From NCBI GenBank assembly GCA_003671275.1, contig QWPB01000091.1, positions 1 to 38,048 on the forward strand: a DNA stretch of 38,048 nucleotides, given 5' to 3'. How positions within the stretch are numbered: the stretch's first letter is position 1; every line of letters starts with the position of its first letter. Positions 1-24,865 of the stretch are shown piece by piece. The notes under the pieces are model-generated. The model was not told where the DNA came from, searched no databases, and was given only the letters and a program-made list of their open reading frames with translations. This DNA comes from Planctomycetota bacterium. Its GTDB lineage: Bacteria; Planctomycetota; Planctomycetia; Planctomycetales; Planctomycetaceae. The translations under genes were made by a program, and so were the position numbers.

Positions 1-39
1 CACTGCGAGGGGTCATTTTCCCCGGGCGAACGGTGTTTC

Positions 40-801
40 ATGTCGATCGAATTCCGTCAACGATTCCTTGCCGGTGACCGGCTGTATGGAACGATGCTGA
101 CGCTTCCGAATGGGGCGGTGGCTGAGATTCTGGGTGATGCCGGGTACGACTGGATCTTTGTCGATGCCGAACATGGGCCGATCGAGGCGGGCGAGCTGCA
201 GTTGATCCTGCAGACGATCGGTCGACGGGTTCCGTGTCTGGTGCGGGTGCCGACGACGGACGCGGTCGTGATCCAGCGAGCGCTCGATCTGGGCTCAGCG
301 GGGATCATTGTTCCCCAGGTGAATACCGCCGAGCAGGCGGCCCGGGTGGTCGAATACTCGCGTTATCCACCCGCCGGTTCACGCGGGGTGGGGATCTCGC
401 GGGCGCAGGGGTACGGGTTGGAATTTGCTCCCTATGTGGCGGATGCCAATCAGCGATCGACGGTCATCGTCCAGGCGGAAAACATCCGGGCGGTGGAAGC
501 GATCGAGCAGATTGTGGCGGTTCCCGGCCTCGATGGCGTTCTGGTCGGGCCGTATGACTTGTCGGCCAGCATGGGACTGATGGGTCAGATCGACCACCCG
601 CAGGTGGTCGCCGCGATCGATCGTGTGACTGCGGCGACACAGCGGGCCGGTCTGAAGCTGGGGATCTTTGGTGTGTCGCCCGCCGCGGTGAAGCCGTACC
701 TCGCGAAAGGTTACACACTGCTGGTTGCCGGGGTCGATACGATCATGCTGGGGCAGGGCGCGCGGGCGGTGCTGGCCGATTTGAAAGCTGGAGTCGCCTG
801 A
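40..801 (+). CDS. HpcH/HpaI-family aldolase
   Basis: This 253-residue protein belongs to the HpcH/HpaI (2-dehydro-3-deoxyglucarate / 4-hydroxy-2-oxovalerate) class II aldolases. These are cytoplasmic TIM barrels that cleave or form 2-oxo acids using a divalent metal. Family hallmarks are present: DAEHGP with the catalytic His near residue 45, an Arg in LVRVP, a metal-binding Glu in VQAE near residue 147, and the metal-binding Asp in GPYDLSASMG. Length is normal for the family. The ATG at 40 is used because the conserved N-terminus starts there; no strong ribosome binding site is seen. The next gene is on the same strand 77 bp downstream but is unrelated. The exact substrate cannot be read from sequence. 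Confidence 0.93.
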   Translation: MSIEFRQRFLAGDRLYGTMLTLPNGAVAEILGDAGYDWIFVDAEHGPIEAGELQLILQTIGRRVPCLVRVPTTDAVVIQRALDLGSAGIIVPQVNTAEQAARVVEYSRYPPAGSRGVGISRAQGYGLEFAPYVADANQRSTVIVQAENIRAVEAIEQIVAVPGLDGVLVGPYDLSASMGLMGQIDHPQVVAAIDRVTAATQRAGLKLGIFGVSPAAVKPYLAKGYTLLVAGVDTIMLGQGARAVLADLKAGVA

Positions 802-3968: not shown

Positions 3969-4463
3969 TCACGACCGCACGAAGGCCATCCAATAAAATG
4001 CCAGCCCCGTCACCGAGGTCAGAACCAGATCGAGGGTAGCGGCCCAGCCCAGCTTCTTGTGCAAAGCGCTATGCGCACTGGGCATTCGGGGATGCGGGAA
4101 CCGCCGCCATGCCAGAATCAGCGTGATGCCCCACAATACCGGCGTCGACACCGCAAACACCAAATGTATCCACAACATGGTCTCGACCTGGGCCAAGGCG
4201 GCACCTACCACGCGGGGGGACTCGGGATGCTTATTCACGATCTGCTGCCAGCCACCATGCATCCGCATGTCGACTTCGAAGGCAGCGACGACAAACAGCA
4301 AGACAGCTGCCAGCGCGGTCTGTACCTGAGCATGCAGTTCGTACTGCCGCCGGACTTTCACAAGATACAGGCTCCAGCAGATCACCGGCACCACCAGCAC
4401 CAGGGCGCAGACGACCACATCCAGCATCAACGACGAATCAAATCCGAGAAATCCGCTCTTCAT
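3969..4463 (-). CDS. DUF420 family membrane protein
   Basis: This membrane protein of about 164 residues resembles DUF420 (CtaM-like) proteins. It has four hydrophobic segments: VVVCALVLVVPVICWSLYLV, VQTALAAVLLFVVAAFEVDM, MLWIHLVFAVSTPVLWGITL, and LDLVLTSVTGLAFYWMAFV. Conserved-looking histidines occur in HAQVQ, RMHGG and IHLVF. Some DUF420 proteins in other bacteria help cytochrome oxidase assembly, but no oxidase genes are near, so that role is only a possibility. I place the start at 4463 because a longer frame to 4658 would add 65 polar, low-complexity residues lying across the promoter region of the divergent glycosyltransferase. Confidence 0.75.
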   Translation of the reverse strand: MKSGFLGFDSSLMLDVVVCALVLVVPVICWSLYLVKVRRQYELHAQVQTALAAVLLFVVAAFEVDMRMHGGWQQIVNKHPESPRVVGAALAQVETMLWIHLVFAVSTPVLWGITLILAWRRFPHPRMPSAHSALHKKLGWAATLDLVLTSVTGLAFYWMAFVRS

Positions 4464-19190: not shown

Positions 19191-21797
19191 ATGGGTTCAC
19201 TGATGAAGTCGATCGTTCACACGGTGGCCCTCTGGCTCGGCCTGATTTCGTGTGCGCCCGCCGAGACCCTCGTGCCCGTGGATCAGGCCGGGTACGCGAA
19301 GACGGTCGCCCCGTTCGTCCGGAAGTACTGCGGTGAGTGTCACACCGGTGAGAAGCCGGAAGGGGATTTCGGAGTCGATGCTGACCGCCTGGCCAACGAT
19401 TTTGGAGATCCCGCTGCTCGCGGAAAATGGCGCGAGGTGGTGAATGTCCTGAATTCGCATGAGATGCCTCCCGAGAAGTCGGACCAGCCGACCGCCGCGG
19501 AGGTTGCCTCCGTCGTCGACTGGATCACGGAGCAGACTGTCCGGGCCGAGCTGATTCGCCGCGAACGAACAGTCGTCATGCGGCGGCTGAATCGTCAGGA
19601 GTATCGCAACACGATTCGCGATCTGATCGGTGTGGACTTCGATACCTCGGGATTCCCGCAGGATCCACCGGCGGGCGGGTTCGATAACAATGGGGGGGCT
19701 TTATCGCTTTCGCCGTTGCATGTGGAGATGTACTTGGCAGCCGCCCAGCAGATCCTCGACCGGGCCTTGGTCGAAGGGGAGCGGCCCGCCGGGATTCAGT
19801 GGCGGTTTATTCCCAAGGTGGGCGATGCGGATCGGACCCGTCTGCGACTCGACAAGGAAAATAACCCGATCGTCAATGGCGGGAATAACCTGCAAGAGGG
19901 TGAGTGGGTGGTGGTCCATCACGAACGGTGGGACAAAGGGATCGGAGCCCGCGATTTTCGTGTCCCCGTCGCGGGGCTTTACACGATTCGCGTGCAGGCT
20001 GCGGGGCGGACGCCGACTCCGGAACAGGTGGTGGCTTCGGCGGAGAAGTTTCTGGCCCATCGCCGCGATGAGCAGGATGCCAAGAATCCGGCGGGCAAGA
20101 AGTACGCCCAGGAGCAATACGAACGTGACCTGGAGCATTTTCAGAACGACGGGATGTACCACTATGGACCACCACGGGTGAAGCTTGGCGTTCAACTGGG
20201 TTCGCTGCCGCGAACCATTGCCGAATTCGATGTGGATGGGACGCCGGAAAAGCCCAGGGTTCACGAATTCACGACGCGATTCACGACCGAGAAGGCGGGT
20301 GTTGGCTTCGAATATGCCTATGCCATTCCCAAGGTTCTGGAAAATTTCTGGATGCAGGGCCACGATAATTTTTCCCGGCCCGAGTTCATGGTGTCGTGGT
20401 TCGAGATCGAAGGGCCGGTCTACGATGCGTGGCCCCCCACTTCGCACACGCGAATCCTGTTTTCGTCCCCGCTGGCGGTGTCCGATGAAACGAAGTACGT
20501 ACGCGAGGTCCTGATACGGTTCATGTCGCGGGCGTTTCGTCGCCCTGTGGAACCGTCCGAAGTCGAAGCCAAGCTGGCACTGTTTGCAGCCCATCGAAAA
20601 GACAAGTCGCTGGTCGAAGCGGTCAAGTTGCCGTTGATTGGCGTGCTGACCAGCCCGCACTTTTTGTATCTGGTGGAGCGGTCGGATGAGGTCCGCGAGC
20701 GGGCCCGGACGCAGGCTGGTGCGATCAGCCAGGGGCCGGCTCTGCCTGAGGCCCGGACGCTCACCGCTCACGAATTGGCCGCGCGGCTGTCCTATCTGTT
20801 GTGGTCTTCGATGCCCGACGGGCCGTTGCTGGAACTGGCGGACAACGGGAAGCTGTTGGACCCGGCCGTCCGATTGGCGCAGGTGGATCGGATGCTGGCC
20901 GATCCCCGGTCCGAGGCGTTCGTCAAGAATTTTTCCGGTCAGTGGCTGGGGCTGCGTGATGTGGGGACGAATCCTCCAGCAGCGGACCTGTACCCGCAGT
21001 ATGACCGGCATCTGGAGACCTCAATGGTCGGGGAGTCCGAGGCATTCTTCGCCGAGTTTTTGCGAAATGATCTCGATGTCCGACAGATGATCCGCTCGGA
21101 CTTTGTGACGATCAATGAACGGCTGGCCCGTTTCTATGGGATTGCTGGAGTGCGAGGCGACCAGTTTCGCAAGGTGCCCGTCCCGACGGGAGTGCATCGC
21201 GGAGGGATCGTCACCCAGGCATTGATTTTGACGATCACCTCGAACGGGACGCGGACTTCCCCGGTGAAGCGTGGCACGTGGATTCTGAAGACGCTACTCA
21301 ATACCGATCCGGGTTTGCCGGTTGCCAACGCGGGGGAGATTGCCCCGAAGGTGCCAGGAATTGATAAGGCGACGGTCCGGAAACGATTGGAGATCCACCG
21401 CGAGTTGCCGCAGTGTGCCCGCTGTCACAGTAAGATTGACCCGCTGGGGTTCGCGCTGGAGAACTTCAACGCGACCGGCGATTGGCGTGATCAGGAAGGG
21501 TTCGGATACAAGGGCCGCGTGGGACGGGATGATCCGCGGATCGATGCCTCTTCACGGATGCCCGACGGGACGGAGATCCATGGAGTCGCCGGGTTGCAGG
21601 ACGCAATGCTCCAGCAGGAGGAGCTGTTCCTGGGGGCGGTGGCTTCGAAGTTGTTGACGTATGCCTGTGGCCGGGAAATGGGGCTGGCCGACCAGCCCAC
21701 CGTCAAGTCAGCCGTCGGGGAGATGAAGCAACAGAAATACACGCTGCGATCGCTGGTGAAGTATGTGGTCCTGAGTGACGCATTTTCGAAGCGGTAG
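19191..21797 (+). CDS. cytochrome-type DUF1587/1595/1592/1588/1585 protein
   Basis: This planctomycete exported protein has about 868 residues. A signal peptide (HTVALWLGLISCAPAETLVP) is followed by a c-type haem motif CGECH near residue 47. Domains in order: DUF1587 (RRLNRQEYRNTIRDLIGVDF), a central beta-rich region, DUF1595 (FMSRAFRRPVEPSEVEAKLA), DUF1592 (ELAARLSYLLWSSMPDGPLL), DUF1588 with a second CxxCH (CARCHSKIDPLGFALENFN), and DUF1585 (GCG-free tail TYACGREMGLADQPTVKSAV). Such proteins are probably periplasmic and haem-binding; their role is unestablished. They usually precede a DUF1552 gene, but none follows here. The ATG at 19191 or the one at 19203 could start translation; a longer frame upstream overlaps the MoaD-like gene and is not real. 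Confidence 0.93.
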   Translation: MGSLMKSIVHTVALWLGLISCAPAETLVPVDQAGYAKTVAPFVRKYCGECHTGEKPEGDFGVDADRLANDFGDPAARGKWREVVNVLNSHEMPPEKSDQPTAAEVASVVDWITEQTVRAELIRRERTVVMRRLNRQEYRNTIRDLIGVDFDTSGFPQDPPAGGFDNNGGALSLSPLHVEMYLAAAQQILDRALVEGERPAGIQWRFIPKVGDADRTRLRLDKENNPIVNGGNNLQEGEWVVVHHERWDKGIGARDFRVPVAGLYTIRVQAAGRTPTPEQVVASAEKFLAHRRDEQDAKNPAGKKYAQEQYERDLEHFQNDGMYHYGPPRVKLGVQLGSLPRTIAEFDVDGTPEKPRVHEFTTRFTTEKAGVGFEYAYAIPKVLENFWMQGHDNFSRPEFMVSWFEIEGPVYDAWPPTSHTRILFSSPLAVSDETKYVREVLIRFMSRAFRRPVEPSEVEAKLALFAAHRKDKSLVEAVKLPLIGVLTSPHFLYLVERSDEVRERARTQAGAISQGPALPEARTLTAHELAARLSYLLWSSMPDGPLLELADNGKLLDPAVRLAQVDRMLADPRSEAFVKNFSGQWLGLRDVGTNPPAADLYPQYDRHLETSMVGESEAFFAEFLRNDLDVRQMIRSDFVTINERLARFYGIAGVRGDQFRKVPVPTGVHRGGIVTQALILTITSNGTRTSPVKRGTWILKTLLNTDPGLPVANAGEIAPKVPGIDKATVRKRLEIHRELPQCARCHSKIDPLGFALENFNATGDWRDQEGFGYKGRVGRDDPRIDASSRMPDGTEIHGVAGLQDAMLQQEELFLGAVASKLLTYACGREMGLADQPTVKSAVGEMKQQKYTLRSLVKYVVLSDAFSKR

Positions 21798-21897
21798 TTC
21801 CAGCTTCATCTTCCCTCGTGAGGAGCGTCCCGATAACTTGGAGGTGCTGGCAAGTCACGGGCTGGCAGGAACCTCCTCGCGCAAGGCGATCCGCTTC

Positions 21898-22587
21898 ATG
21901 CCTCTTCTCAGCCAAACGTCAGTCGACTGGGTGGTCGTTCTCGATCAACTGTCGAACTGGTCCACTGCGGTGATTGTGATCTGTTTTGGTCTGCACCTGC
22001 TGCTGTTCCTGGGGTTGTGGGGGCTTTCCCGGCGGGACTTTCGGGTGATTGCTTCGACGCTGTTTGACTTCACACGCGGGATGAAGCATCAAAGCCTGTT
22101 CGATTCGGCCGCTCATCTGGGAGATCAGATCGAGGGGTTTCTGGCCGACGTCAACGATGTTCTGGATGACCCCACGCGGAGAGAAGACCGCCAGATGCTG
22201 CTGACGCGGATGCAGTACCTGGACGAAAAGCGGCGTTACCTGCAATCGATGTTCTTTGACACGCTCTACAACATGGCCCGGACGATGATCGAGGCTTACC
22301 CGCTGGCGGGGGTGCTGGGGACGATGCTGGCGATTGGAGCGGCGCTGACCATGGGTTCCGATGATCCCGGCAATGCGGTTGCGCTCGTGGTCAGCCGATT
22401 CGGTCAGGCAATCTGGAGTTCGTTTGCCGGGCTCATTTCGGCGATCATTCTGATGCTCATCAACAGCTTTCTGGAGCCCTCGTTTAACCGGCTGAGCGAA
22501 GACCGACGACTGGTTCGCGAGACGGTCGCCCGGGCCAAGCGGATTCTGGCACTGGCGGTTCACAAGTCGGAGGGGCCCGACGCATGA
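21898..22587 (+). CDS. MotA/TolQ/ExbB-like proton channel subunit
   Basis: This 229-residue inner-membrane protein has the ExbB/TolQ/MotA topology: one N-terminal helix (VIVICFGLHLLLFLGLWGLS), a cytoplasmic region of about 90 residues with charged helices, and two C-terminal helices, MIEAYPLAGVLGTMLAIGAA and SSFAGLISAIILMLINSFLE. These resemble the family's PLLGLLGTV and TTAxGLxxAI segments. A pentamer around two ExbD-like helices would carry protons to power work across the envelope. I chose ATG 21898 because the upstream residues are not family-like, although its ribosome site (AAGG at 21883) is weak. It overlaps the next gene by four bases (ATGA). Confidence 0.8.
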   Translation: MPLLSQTSVDWVVVLDQLSNWSTAVIVICFGLHLLLFLGLWGLSRRDFRVIASTLFDFTRGMKHQSLFDSAAHLGDQIEGFLADVNDVLDDPTRREDRQMLLTRMQYLDEKRRYLQSMFFDTLYNMARTMIEAYPLAGVLGTMLAIGAALTMGSDDPGNAVALVVSRFGQAIWSSFAGLISAIILMLINSFLEPSFNRLSEDRRLVRETVARAKRILALAVHKSEGPDA

Positions 22588-23330
22588 TCATTCGTCGCCG
22601 ATTGCTGCTGCAGATCACCCCGATCCTCGACATGTTGCTGCTGGTCATGTTCCTGCAGTTCATGGATATGAAGCAGCGTACGCTGGGGATGGCCTCCGAG
22701 GCGACGGCCACCGCGGTCGCGCTGGAAGAGGCGGATGCCCGGCTGGCCGCGACCCAGGCGGCCCTGATCCAGACTCAGCAGGACGCGGAACGCACACGCG
22801 AACAGCAGGCGACGATCGCCGGAATGGTGGCGGAAGTCTTCCACATGACCCCCGCCGAAACCAAATCACTCTTGCGAGATCTGCAACCCGCCGGGGCGAT
22901 TTCTCCCGCCACGCTGGACCGATTGGGACAGCTGGCAGCGGGCAGTCCGGCCCCGGTGGTTGAGCATCTGATTACCTATGGAGAGATTCGCAAACGCTGC
23001 GATTTGTGGGAGCTGCATATCGACGGGAACAATGTGGCTCATCTGACCTCGGGCGATCATGCGACGGCGCTGCGGGTGAACTTGAGTGACGCTCAGGATG
23101 CGGAGATCGAGGAGTTTGCGAACGCATTGGAAACCACGTACCGCGGGTTACCCCAGCCCAAATACCTGGTAATTGTACTGTTCAGTTTTGACCGTGCGGC
23201 CCGACTGACGGTGACGGAGGGGATCGGTAAGGCGCTGCCCCGCATTGTGGATCGCCTGACCAAGGCCAGCGTGGGGCTGACCCGCTTTGAGTACGCAGAG
23301 CTGGGGATGCGCGGTTCCTTAGTGCCCTGA
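22584..23330 (+). CDS. ExbD/TolR-like partner with coiled-coil stalk
   Basis: This 248-residue protein starts with a helix LQITPILDMLLLVMFLQFMD (residues 9-28). It matches the ExbD/TolR pattern T-P-x-x-D, where the membrane Asp (here D16) carries the protons. Unlike standard ExbD (about 140 residues), it continues into an Ala/Gln/Glu-rich region at about 40-80 that looks like a coiled coil (EEADARLAATQAALIQTQQD). A mixed periplasmic domain then runs to the end. Its strand KYLVIVLFSFDRAARLTVTE followed by a helix is reminiscent of the ExbD C-terminal fold. No TonB, Pal or OmpA-type peptidoglycan-binding motif is seen. Translation is coupled to the ExbB-like gene. The target of the force is unknown. 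Confidence 0.72.
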   Translation: MIIRRRLLLQITPILDMLLLVMFLQFMDMKQRTLGMASEATATAVALEEADARLAATQAALIQTQQDAERTREQQATIAGMVAEVFHMTPAETKSLLRDLQPAGAISPATLDRLGQLAAGSPAPVVEHLITYGEIRKRCDLWELHIDGNNVAHLTSGDHATALRVNLSDAQDAEIEEFANALETTYRGLPQPKYLVIVLFSFDRAARLTVTEGIGKALPRIVDRLTKASVGLTRFEYAELGMRGSLVP

Positions 23331-23385
23331 TGGAGTGGATGTATTGCCCGGTGTGTTCGGCCCGCGTGTATTGTGGGAGCCTCAA

Positions 23386-23792
23386 GAGACGTGATCGGTG
23401 GCGGGCCGCTCCCGAAGGAATCGATGCCCCTGTATTCTTTTCACGTCTCCTAAAATCGGCAGCTTTTCCGCTGGTAGAGGGTTCCCGTTGCCGATATGGT
23501 TCGACAGATGCAGTGCAGCGGAAAGTAATTTCCGCGAAATTGCAGGTGTCTCTCGGTTTCTTTGTGCCTCGCTTCACGGCGGCGCTACAATGAAGTCGAG
23601 TTTGACTCACGATGACCGACTTCTCGCTTCCTAGCGCCGGAGGACCAACAAACCGCGTGGGCCGCGGACGCCAAGGTACGTGCCAGACACGACCTGTCCA
23701 TCGCCCTTTTCGCAACGCATCCTGACGAGCCATACAGGACGAGAGTCGATAATCGAAGCTGCAGATCGGTTCGCCGGTCGGCAGCTTTTTTT
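23386..23792 (+). ncRNA. candidate structured non-coding RNA
   Basis: Perfect stems occur in order: GAGACGTGA/TCACGTCTC (23386-23394 with 23441-23449); ATCGGCA/TGCCGAT (23455-23461 with 23489-23495); GCGGAAA/TTTCCGC around a GTAA tetraloop (23518-23535); CGGCGCTA/TAGCGCCG (23580-23587 with 23642-23649) enclosing GAAGTCG/CGACTTC (23592-23598 with 23627-23633). The region ends in a strong intrinsic terminator. I checked for the conserved cores of RNase P RNA, tmRNA and SRP RNA and do not see them. It may be an unrecognised RNA, the 3' UTR of the ExbB/ExbD-like mRNA, or chance folding of GC-rich DNA. The 5' end is unknown. Confidence 0.4.
23756..23792 (+). terminator. intrinsic (rho-independent) terminator
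   Basis: Stem AAGCTGC (23756-23762) pairs with GCAGCTT (23781-23787). An inner stem GATCGG/CCGGTC (one G-U pair) closes a TTCG tetraloop after a single A/G mismatch, and a run of seven T's ends at 23792. It is oriented for plus-strand transcripts and separates the ExbB/ExbD-like unit from lpxA. Confidence 0.85.
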
Positions 23793-23911
23793 CATGGGGG
23801 GGCGGTCTCGCGGAACGGCTCACACCGCCGCGACTGGATGCGAATTGAACTCTGGCCGCCACAGCCGCCAGTTCGTTTCCGGTGAATCCGAGACTCCGCG
23901 ACCGGGAGATG

Positions 23912-23939
23912 TTGACGGAAACCGATGTTTTAGAATATT
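23912..23939 (+). promoter_or_regulatory. candidate sigma-70-type promoter for lpxA
   Basis: TTGACG (23912-23917, five of six matches to TTGACA), a 16-base spacer and AATATT (23934-23939, four of six matches to TATAAT) lie just downstream of a strong terminator and about 65 bases before the lpxA ATG. Position and match make it the best promoter candidate in the window. Confidence 0.45.
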
Positions 23940-24004
23940 CCTCGCATGCTCACATGCTGGTTGCGGAAATCATTCCGCACCGGTCCACCGACAAGGATGT
24001 CCGG

Positions 24005-24865
24005 ATGGCCACCTACATTTCGCCCCTCGCTTACGTTGATCCTCGTGCCCAGCTGGGGGAGAACGTGTTTGTCGGACCGTTCTGTCTGATCGGTCCGAAT
24101 GTCACGATCGGTGTGGATACCCGTCTGGAAAGCCACGTCACGGTGATTGGCTGGGCCACGATTGGCGAGCGAAATCGGTTCTGTCAGAACTGCGTCATCG
24201 GAGGCGAGCCGCAGGATAAAGGGTATGTTGAAGGGGCTCCCACACAAGTCATCATTGGGGACGACAACCACTTTCGGGAAGGGGTGACCGTCAATCGCGG
24301 GGCGATGAAGGAAGACGGTATCACGCGGATCGATCACCGCAATCTGCTGATGTCGAATGCGCACGTGGCCCATAACTGTCACGTTTACTCCGACACGATG
24401 CTGGTCAATGGCGTACTGCTCGGAGGCCATGTCCATGTGCACGACAAGGCGATTATCTCCGGCAATTCGGCGGTCCACCATTTCAGTTCCGTGGGGACGC
24501 TGGCTTTCGTGGGGGGGTGCTCCAAGGTGGTCGTGGACGTGCCTCCCTACATGATCTACGACGGGAATGACGAAGCGGGTGTCCGCACGTTGAACCTGGT
24601 GGGTATGCAGCGAGCCGGAGTCAATGCGAGCACGATCGCCCTCATCAAGCGGGCCTATAAGCTGTTGATTCGTGAACACAAGCCGCTGGATGAAGTGCGT
24701 GTCTTGCTGGCCGATGAGTGTGACGGCGTGATTCCGATGGAACTGGGCACGCTCTTCTCGTTTCTCGATTACCAGCGTCAGGGGAAAAATGGTCGGGGGC
24801 GCGAAGTGGTTCGTGCCCATGTACCCGCGATTGCCTTGCCTGAAGTGCGGTCCAAGGCGGCCTGA
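24005..24865 (+). CDS. lpxA: acyl-ACP--UDP-N-acetylglucosamine O-acyltransferase
   Basis: This 286-residue cytoplasmic enzyme catalyses the first step of lipid A synthesis, moving a hydroxyacyl chain from ACP to a UDP-sugar. The N-terminal two thirds is a left-handed beta-helix of hexapeptide repeats (ISPLAYVDPRAQLGENVFVG). The catalytic His lies in NAHVAHNCHV (E. coli His125), and other landmarks are GGHVHVHDKAIISGNSAVHH, GGCSKVVVDVPPYMIYDGND and the C-terminal helical domain (RAYKLLIREHKPLDEVRVLL). AAGGA seven bases before the ATG supports the start. It is followed after 33 bp by an oxidoreductase, an order known from lipid A loci that use an amino-sugar substrate. Its presence implies that the organism can make lipid A. 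Confidence 0.95.
   Translation: MATYISPLAYVDPRAQLGENVFVGPFCLIGPNVTIGVDTRLESHVTVIGWATIGERNRFCQNCVIGGEPQDKGYVEGAPTQVIIGDDNHFREGVTVNRGAMKEDGITRIDHRNLLMSNAHVAHNCHVYSDTMLVNGVLLGGHVHVHDKAIISGNSAVHHFSSVGTLAFVGGCSKVVVDVPPYMIYDGNDEAGVRTLNLVGMQRAGVNASTIALIKRAYKLLIREHKPLDEVRVLLADECDGVIPMELGTLFSFLDYQRQGKNGRGREVVRAHVPAIALPEVRSKAA

Follow-up and report, generated by a model that had tools for sequence, protein, structure and literature searches.

Closest described RNAs and the locus

Among described bacterial RNAs, the closest in plan to the one presented here is 6S RNA (SsrS; Rfam ID RF00013), which, like the new RNA, is a stand-alone RNA of ~180 to 200 nt encoded once per genome, with a closing stem, a long arm, and a small 3' hairpin next to an open region. 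6S RNA binds the RNA polymerase holoenzyme and is a template for product RNAs. Some bacteria have two 6S RNAs or Ms1, and a highly conserved open-region sequence is not typical of 6S. Ms1 RNA of the actinobacteria shares with the new RNA the 6S-like look and the clade-wide occurrence as a single RNA. The CsrA-titrating RNAs of the CsrB type carry many GGA motifs in loops, where CsrA binds; the new RNA has a GGAGGA stretch in its J1/2 segment. In planctomycetes, 6S RNA has been reported as absent from Thermogutta, Pirellula, and Rhodopirellula (PMC5673643). Rhodopirellula-1 (Weinberg et al. 2010) is a named planctomycete RNA candidate that, like the RNA described here, lacks an Rfam entry. Its row in Table 1, the sole mention of planctomycetes in the main text, gives no Rfam number and lists it as ambiguous ("RNA?") and probably cis-regulatory, with representatives in Proteobacteria and Planctomycetes (PMC2864571).

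The window, i.e., the whole 38,048-nt stretch of planctomycete DNA that was analyzed, encodes a MotA/TolQ/ExbB-family protein (positions 21775 to 22587; PF01618, 28.6 bits) upstream of the RNA locus. The following open reading frame (22584 to 23330) occupies the ExbD position, and neither Pfam nor NCBIfam gives it an ExbD match; its one hit is a sub-threshold coiled-coil-like match to PF06791 (27.7 bits versus a cut-off of 30.2). Downstream of the locus, the first gene in the same orientation is lpxA, with an ATG at 24005 (NF003657, 290.3 bits).

An earlier note on this DNA had singled out positions 23386 to 23792 as a region without a credible gene, with at least five perfect stems of 7 to 9 bp, including one with a GTAA tetraloop and one nested pair, and with a TTCG-loop terminator followed by seven T's that was said to be the only strong one in the window. 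These observations hold. The long minus-strand frame across the region (23182 to 23862) has no Pfam match. Seven perfect Watson-Crick stems of 7 to 9 bp with loops of up to 60 nt were counted, against a mean of 1.4 in dinucleotide shuffles, none of which (0 of 300) reached seven; among 373 other stretches of 407 nt in the window, one reached this number. The GTAA hairpin is GCGGAAA-GTAA-TTTCCGC (23518 to 23535), enclosed by the pair TTTCCGCTG/CAGCGGAAA. The entire 407-nt region is also more stable than its shuffled versions (z = -2.83; 1 of 100 equally good). The terminator (23756 to 23792, forward strand) is a 13-pair hairpin with a TTCG loop, AAGCTGC-A-GATCGG-TTCG-CCGGTC-G-GCAGCTT (23756 to 23787), and seven T's at 23786 to 23792. 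It is by far the strongest in our scan of the window; a weaker candidate on the minus strand (4001 to 4028), for example, has 10 pairs and a poor tail. A fixed-pattern scan missed the terminator because of an A.G mismatch in its stem.

Extent of the conserved RNA

The further claim that the region is an unrecognized structured RNA ending at the terminator stands in its substance, with compensatory changes across homologs and no Rfam match, but not in its boundaries: the RNA corresponds to the 3' half only, approximately 23597 to 23792. In a BLAST comparison of positions 23330 to 24005 with 149 related genomes, there was one significant conserved block. Two genomes of the same genus share 87 to 88% identity over 23623 to 23792, a match whose 3' end coincides with the final T of the terminator, and two other genera share 77 to 79% identity over 23635 to 23726. 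The conserved RNA comprises a domain at 23616 to 23749 and the terminator. The domain is matched in full (model positions 1 to 138, forward strand) by our three successive covariance models, R1, R2, and R3, with 132.3, 96.2, and 80.2 bits, respectively. The genome that contains the window carries no second copy of this RNA.

The 5' half (23386 to 23590) has no convincing homolog among the 149 relatives, where it gives short chance-level matches of <60 bases. Directly 3' of the ExbD-position frame, its 23386-to-23535 part forms strong palindromic stems: 9 bp at 23386 to 23394/23441 to 23449, 9 bp at 23465 to 23473/23516 to 23524, and the GTAA hairpin. The stretch from 23386 to 23560 folds better than its shuffled versions (z = -2.94), has no second copy in its own genome, and is not conserved among the 149 relatives. 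Most of the perfect stems counted earlier sit at 23386 to 23535 or compete with the conserved fold; they are not the conserved structure, whose stems contain bulges and mismatches.

Upstream of the conserved domain, a -10-like hexamer, TACAAT (23586 to 23591, forward strand), predicts a transcription start near 23597 to 23599. The window promoter has no clear -35 box, the candidate TTGTGC (23562 to 23567, forward strand) being weak. Homologs have similar -10-like boxes at varied distances, such as the TATAAT upstream of P1 in one locus (L076).

Fold and covariation

The RNA is a three-way junction, in which a closing stem, P1, leads to a long irregular arm, P2/P3, and a short hairpin, P4 (all coordinates below are for the forward strand). 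P1 pairs CGACT-(T bulge)-CTCG (23617 to 23626) with CGAG-AGTCG (23740 to 23748). The 5' strand of P2 (23655 to 23669) consists of GCG, GGGC, a conserved C.C mismatch, and GCGGAC; its 3' strand (23696 to 23713) reads GTCCAT, C, GCCC, then TTTT and CGC, with TTCTCGCA conserved. P3, at the tip of the arm, is the hairpin AGGT-A-CGTG-CCAGA-CACG-ACCT with one bulged base (23674 to 23695). All three stems are supported by covariation. P4 (23716 to 23727) is CGCA-TCC-TG(A)CG in the window and GCGAC-UCCACC-GUCGC in most members; its pairs are formed in 88.8% of cases across 81 distinct sequences, with changes that are mostly one-sided. Conserved unpaired bases gather around the junction. They form a core that includes GCCGGAGGACCAAC and TTTTCGCA, the former being the conserved single-stranded segment of J1/2 in the window (23636 to 23649). 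Across the family, the conserved unpaired stretches are ATTCCGTCGGAGGNNCCAAC in J1/2 and TTCTCGCA-GCGACTCC-ACCGTCGCAA running through P4.

Compensatory change, a check proposed for this locus, is evident both in sequence-only alignments and in one fitted to the model. With the first 8 members aligned on sequence only, there are 27 base pairs, and 95.4% of the 216 cells are paired; both sides change in 15 of the 27 pairs (8.3 in shuffled data), and partners slid by 1 to 3 columns pair in 35 to 44%. Among 81 distinct members, in an alignment fitted to the structure, 92.3% of 3,005 cells are paired and 624 cells carry double changes, compared with 163 after shuffling and 52 to 120 after sliding. 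All 28 of the strongest covarying column pairs in a structure-blind mutual-information scan are proposed base pairs. The same holds for a MAFFT alignment made without any structure from 107 distinct members (out of 118 matches, leaving out one weak 27-bit match, L188, from the f6 family group): the top 24 of 24 covarying pairs fall inside the proposed helices. From this alignment, RNAalifold predicts P1, P2, and some of P4, and the window sequence folds on its own into P1, P2, and P3.

Two more interactions are possible. A possible extension of the closing stem, P1c, pairs TCCT (23629 to 23632) with AGGA (23736 to 23739) in the window and AUU with AAU in most other members; it has modest support, columns 19 and 122 being paired in 84 of 96 sequences (shuffled mean, 65.6; maximum, 76). 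J1/2 and the P4 loop may meet at columns 26 and 115, where a pair is formed in 99 of 107 members, 78 of them GC and 15 AU (shuffled, 84.6; maximum, 91). As further contacts, both are suggestive only. The adjacent pairs 26-112, 27-111, and 28-110, which would make a GGAG x CUCC pseudoknot, show no excess over shuffles, and both strands are nearly invariant. Beside P2, columns T98 and A104 of the 107-member alignment (~23708 to 23714 in the window) are A and T in 6 members and fit pairing in 105 of 107 (shuffled, 93; maximum, 96), a pattern that possibly reflects a tertiary contact.

Phyletic distribution

The covariance models were built from 8 (R1), 35 (R2), and 84 (R3) sequences; their E-values are rough, coming from short calibrations. 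R1 matches 162 of 397 Planctomycetia genomes. In a sample of 392 genomes from the phylum, R2 matches 36 of the 40 class members and gives one weak partial match (27.6 bits) in the 352 other genomes. R3 matches 214 of the 397 class genomes (209 of the 339 of good quality and 101 of 185 genera), with exactly one match in each of the 214; the conserved RNA is usually a single-copy gene. Since the 84 training loci were preselected by the earlier models or BLAST, the recovery of all 84 by R3 is by construction. The matches cover 15 family groups (f1, f5, f7, f9 to f16, f18, f19, f22, and f23), and a sixteenth, f6, has one weak match.

No R3 match was obtained in 183 of the 397 class genomes. Laxer filters were applied to 27 chosen genomes: 8 of f2, 7 of f3, 1 of f6, 10 from f1 without an earlier match, and G511. 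This added G051 from f1, and another genome (G009) yielded a weak partial match; f2 (0 of 8) and f3 (0 of 7) still had none. The RNA is therefore not universal in the class. Among named contigs, 18 contain a 25-base core motif in exact form; all 18 are from Planctomycetota and score 99 to 132 bits with R3, and some of them are identical with contigs of training members. Another pattern, tried first on named contigs, gave 0 matches.

An RNA tree of 96 of the 107 distinct members, after dropping those without a family label, requires 15 changes of host family label, where the minimum possible is 13 and the shuffled mean is 49.2. This clustering by host family agrees with vertical descent, and the RNA descends by vertical inheritance from an ancestor within the Planctomycetia.

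A probable stand-alone RNA gene

Most family members have terminators of their own. In 67 of 80 members (the 84 loci minus 4 duplicates), P1 is followed within 75 nt by a terminator-like hairpin and T tail, compared with 38 of 1,425 positions chosen at random on the same strand of these loci. Most of the 13 that fail this rule have imperfect hairpins, and the terminators of different members differ in sequence. Coding was considered and rejected: depending on which of the six frames is read, 21 to 34 of the 84 members are free of stops, and member lengths spread evenly over all three remainders.

Comparison with Rfam 15 (4,227 families), also suggested by the earlier note, detects no family at its gathering cut-off anywhere in the window. 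Searches up to an E-value of 10 with 20 tightly defined members return scattered weak families, the best at 25.8 bits versus a cut-off of 70. The sub-threshold matches to P17, BcKCsr2, and sR58 are due to chance. BcKCsr2 (RF02883) appears below threshold in 4 of the 20 members, on the same strand in 3 of these, with a window alignment that includes the terminator hairpin, and its scores of 14.5 to 20.5 bits versus a cut-off of 40 are at chance level. The earlier note did not see the conserved cores of RNase P RNA, tmRNA, and signal recognition particle (SRP) RNA in the region. In the five genomes with the new RNA that were inspected, RNase P RNA (RF00010) and tmRNA (RF00023) are at another place in all five, and the bacterial small SRP RNA (RF00169) is elsewhere in four; it was not found in the fifth, the draft genome that contains the window. 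That genome shows no SRP RNA at an E-value of ≤0.001 and no 6S RNA despite its 99% completeness, owing to either a draft gap or sequence divergence. Genomes such as G041 and G006 carry RNase P RNA, SRP RNA, and tmRNA, together with a 6S RNA that is over its cut-off, besides the new RNA.

The gene-like unit, its structure, its distribution, and its independence of neighboring genes are established by computation, and the locus is, with high probability, a new stand-alone structured RNA gene, a statement about its identity and not about its partner. On this evidence, the family is new, with no relative among the 4,227 Rfam families, although Rhodopirellula-1 could be compared by description only; the claim concerns the family and not its mechanism. 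No earlier description turned up in the literature searches.

The gene would encode a small non-coding RNA of ~195 nt (about 23597 to 23792), probably transcribed from its own promoter. Its terminator is plain in the sequence and presumably serves to end the transcript, which would act in trans. The junction core, i.e., the GGAGG strand, the P4 loop, and UUCUCGCA, may form a fixed tertiary surface that docks a partner. Conserved junction bases combined with freely covarying helices fit such a core better than a simple antisense RNA, which favors a protein partner. That the core binds a protein, either as a regulator or as the scaffold of a ribonucleoprotein (RNP), is our leading suggestion for its function, put forward at slightly less than even confidence.

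Alternative interpretations

The most durable alternative is a base-pairing regulatory RNA, with the Shine-Dalgarno-like GGAGG strand or the CUCC of the P4 loop acting as the seed. The GGAGG of J1/2 and this CUCC hardly vary and are for the most part left unpaired by the model, and their resemblance to Shine-Dalgarno and anti-Shine-Dalgarno sequences leaves room for such a role. However, the conserved stretches are arranged around an elaborate junction, and GGAGG can itself pair with CUCC, as the contact at columns 26 and 115 indicates, even if the adjacent pairs show no excess over shuffles. We regard this reading as rather unlikely, though worth keeping in view.

A second RNA of the 6S or Ms1 type, acting as a 6S-like decoy for RNA polymerase, would account for the architecture, the size, and the single copy per genome. 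It is at odds with the open region of the new RNA, which is highly conserved in sequence. The new RNA also differs from Ms1 in belonging to another phylum and in having no Rfam match. A 6S paralog is the sole form of a 6S reading that could remain, and we consider it improbable.

Because Rhodopirellula-1 has no Rfam number, Rfam searches cannot exclude that its uncatalogued motif has been rediscovered here. The new RNA is strongly supported and is not cis-acting, where the table describes an ambiguous and probably cis-regulatory motif. Among the 352 genomes of the phylum sample from outside the class, the new RNA shows a single weak partial match, compared with the listing of Rhodopirellula-1 in Proteobacteria. 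Identity of the two is very unlikely.

A cis-regulatory element, either the 3' untranslated region of the ExbB/ExbD-like operon, as had been proposed earlier, or a leader or riboswitch of lpxA, is suggested by the position of lpxA, whose ATG lies 212 bases past the terminator as the next same-strand gene. The neighborhoods of the homologs refute this reading, unless the RNA is cis-acting in this genome only, and leave it barely any probability. In a survey of 60 loci (frames of ≥90 amino acids within ~4 kb, less at contig ends), there is no conserved neighbor gene and no position kept upstream of any gene family; the most widespread neighbor is common to 7 loci. The homologs lie elsewhere even within the same genus, where they already sit among different genes, and most of them, in unrelated neighborhoods, bring their own terminators, which disposes of the operon proposal. 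Aligning the interval between the ExbD-like gene and lpxA in different planctomycetes, as the earlier note suggested, would not have worked, as the RNA is not tied to that neighborhood. The neighbor shared by seven loci (L076, L078, L080, L093, L099, L100, and L101) is an upstream gene and represents local synteny in part of the class.

The weakest alternative, that the new RNA is the planctomycete 6S RNA itself, was a working hypothesis after the published claim of its absence and is ruled out by the coexistence of the two RNAs in the same genomes. It had drawn on a size and layout like those of 6S RNA (a closing stem, an open region, a long arm, and a small 3'-side hairpin) and on one genome, G099, which has the new RNA and gives no RF00013 match. 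Yet RF00013 finds a separate 6S RNA in 17 class genomes with the new RNA, 11 of them over cut-off, and the two loci lie apart in all 16 of these genomes for which both positions are given. The same separation is seen in 11 of 11 cases among 40 further genomes from other families, 1 of them over cut-off. R3 is blind to 10 6S loci (best score, 12.9 bits), of which 9 pass the 6S cut-off, and RF00013 is absent from the Rfam matches of the 20 members up to an E-value of 10. RF00013 has no match in the window's own genome. The new RNA thus differs from 6S RNA as a separate gene without model cross-match, with a conserved junction sequence and a short P1.

Of the 40 class genomes in the phylum sample, 20 have an RF00013 match. 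Across the whole sample, this model has matches in 171 of 392 genomes at an E-value of ≤0.01, 101 of them over cut-off. The 6S loci (L190 to L197 and L199) include some from the window's own family, with scores of up to 71.8 bits (G003). Outside that family, most scores within the class stay under the cut-off, so that a planctomycete-specific 6S model is needed. That the Rfam model detects 6S RNA in many members of the Planctomycetota goes against its published absence from Pirellula, Rhodopirellula, and Thermogutta.

Biological implications

As a probable new stand-alone RNA gene, the locus might add a further housekeeping-grade RNA of planctomycetes to RNase P RNA, SRP RNA, tmRNA, and 6S RNA. 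It would be a vertically inherited RNP core or a global regulator, for example, one that binds the ribosome or RNA polymerase, which arose within the class and, unlike the described RNA classes, serves biology special to these bacteria. This proposal is tentative and less likely than not. Planctomycetes are a group with unusual cell biology. The ~195-nt gene offers a precise target for deletion, expression, and partner tests in a tractable species, and a structured RNA that is encoded once per genome across many families and yet is not in Rfam points to a conserved planctomycete process that nobody has studied.
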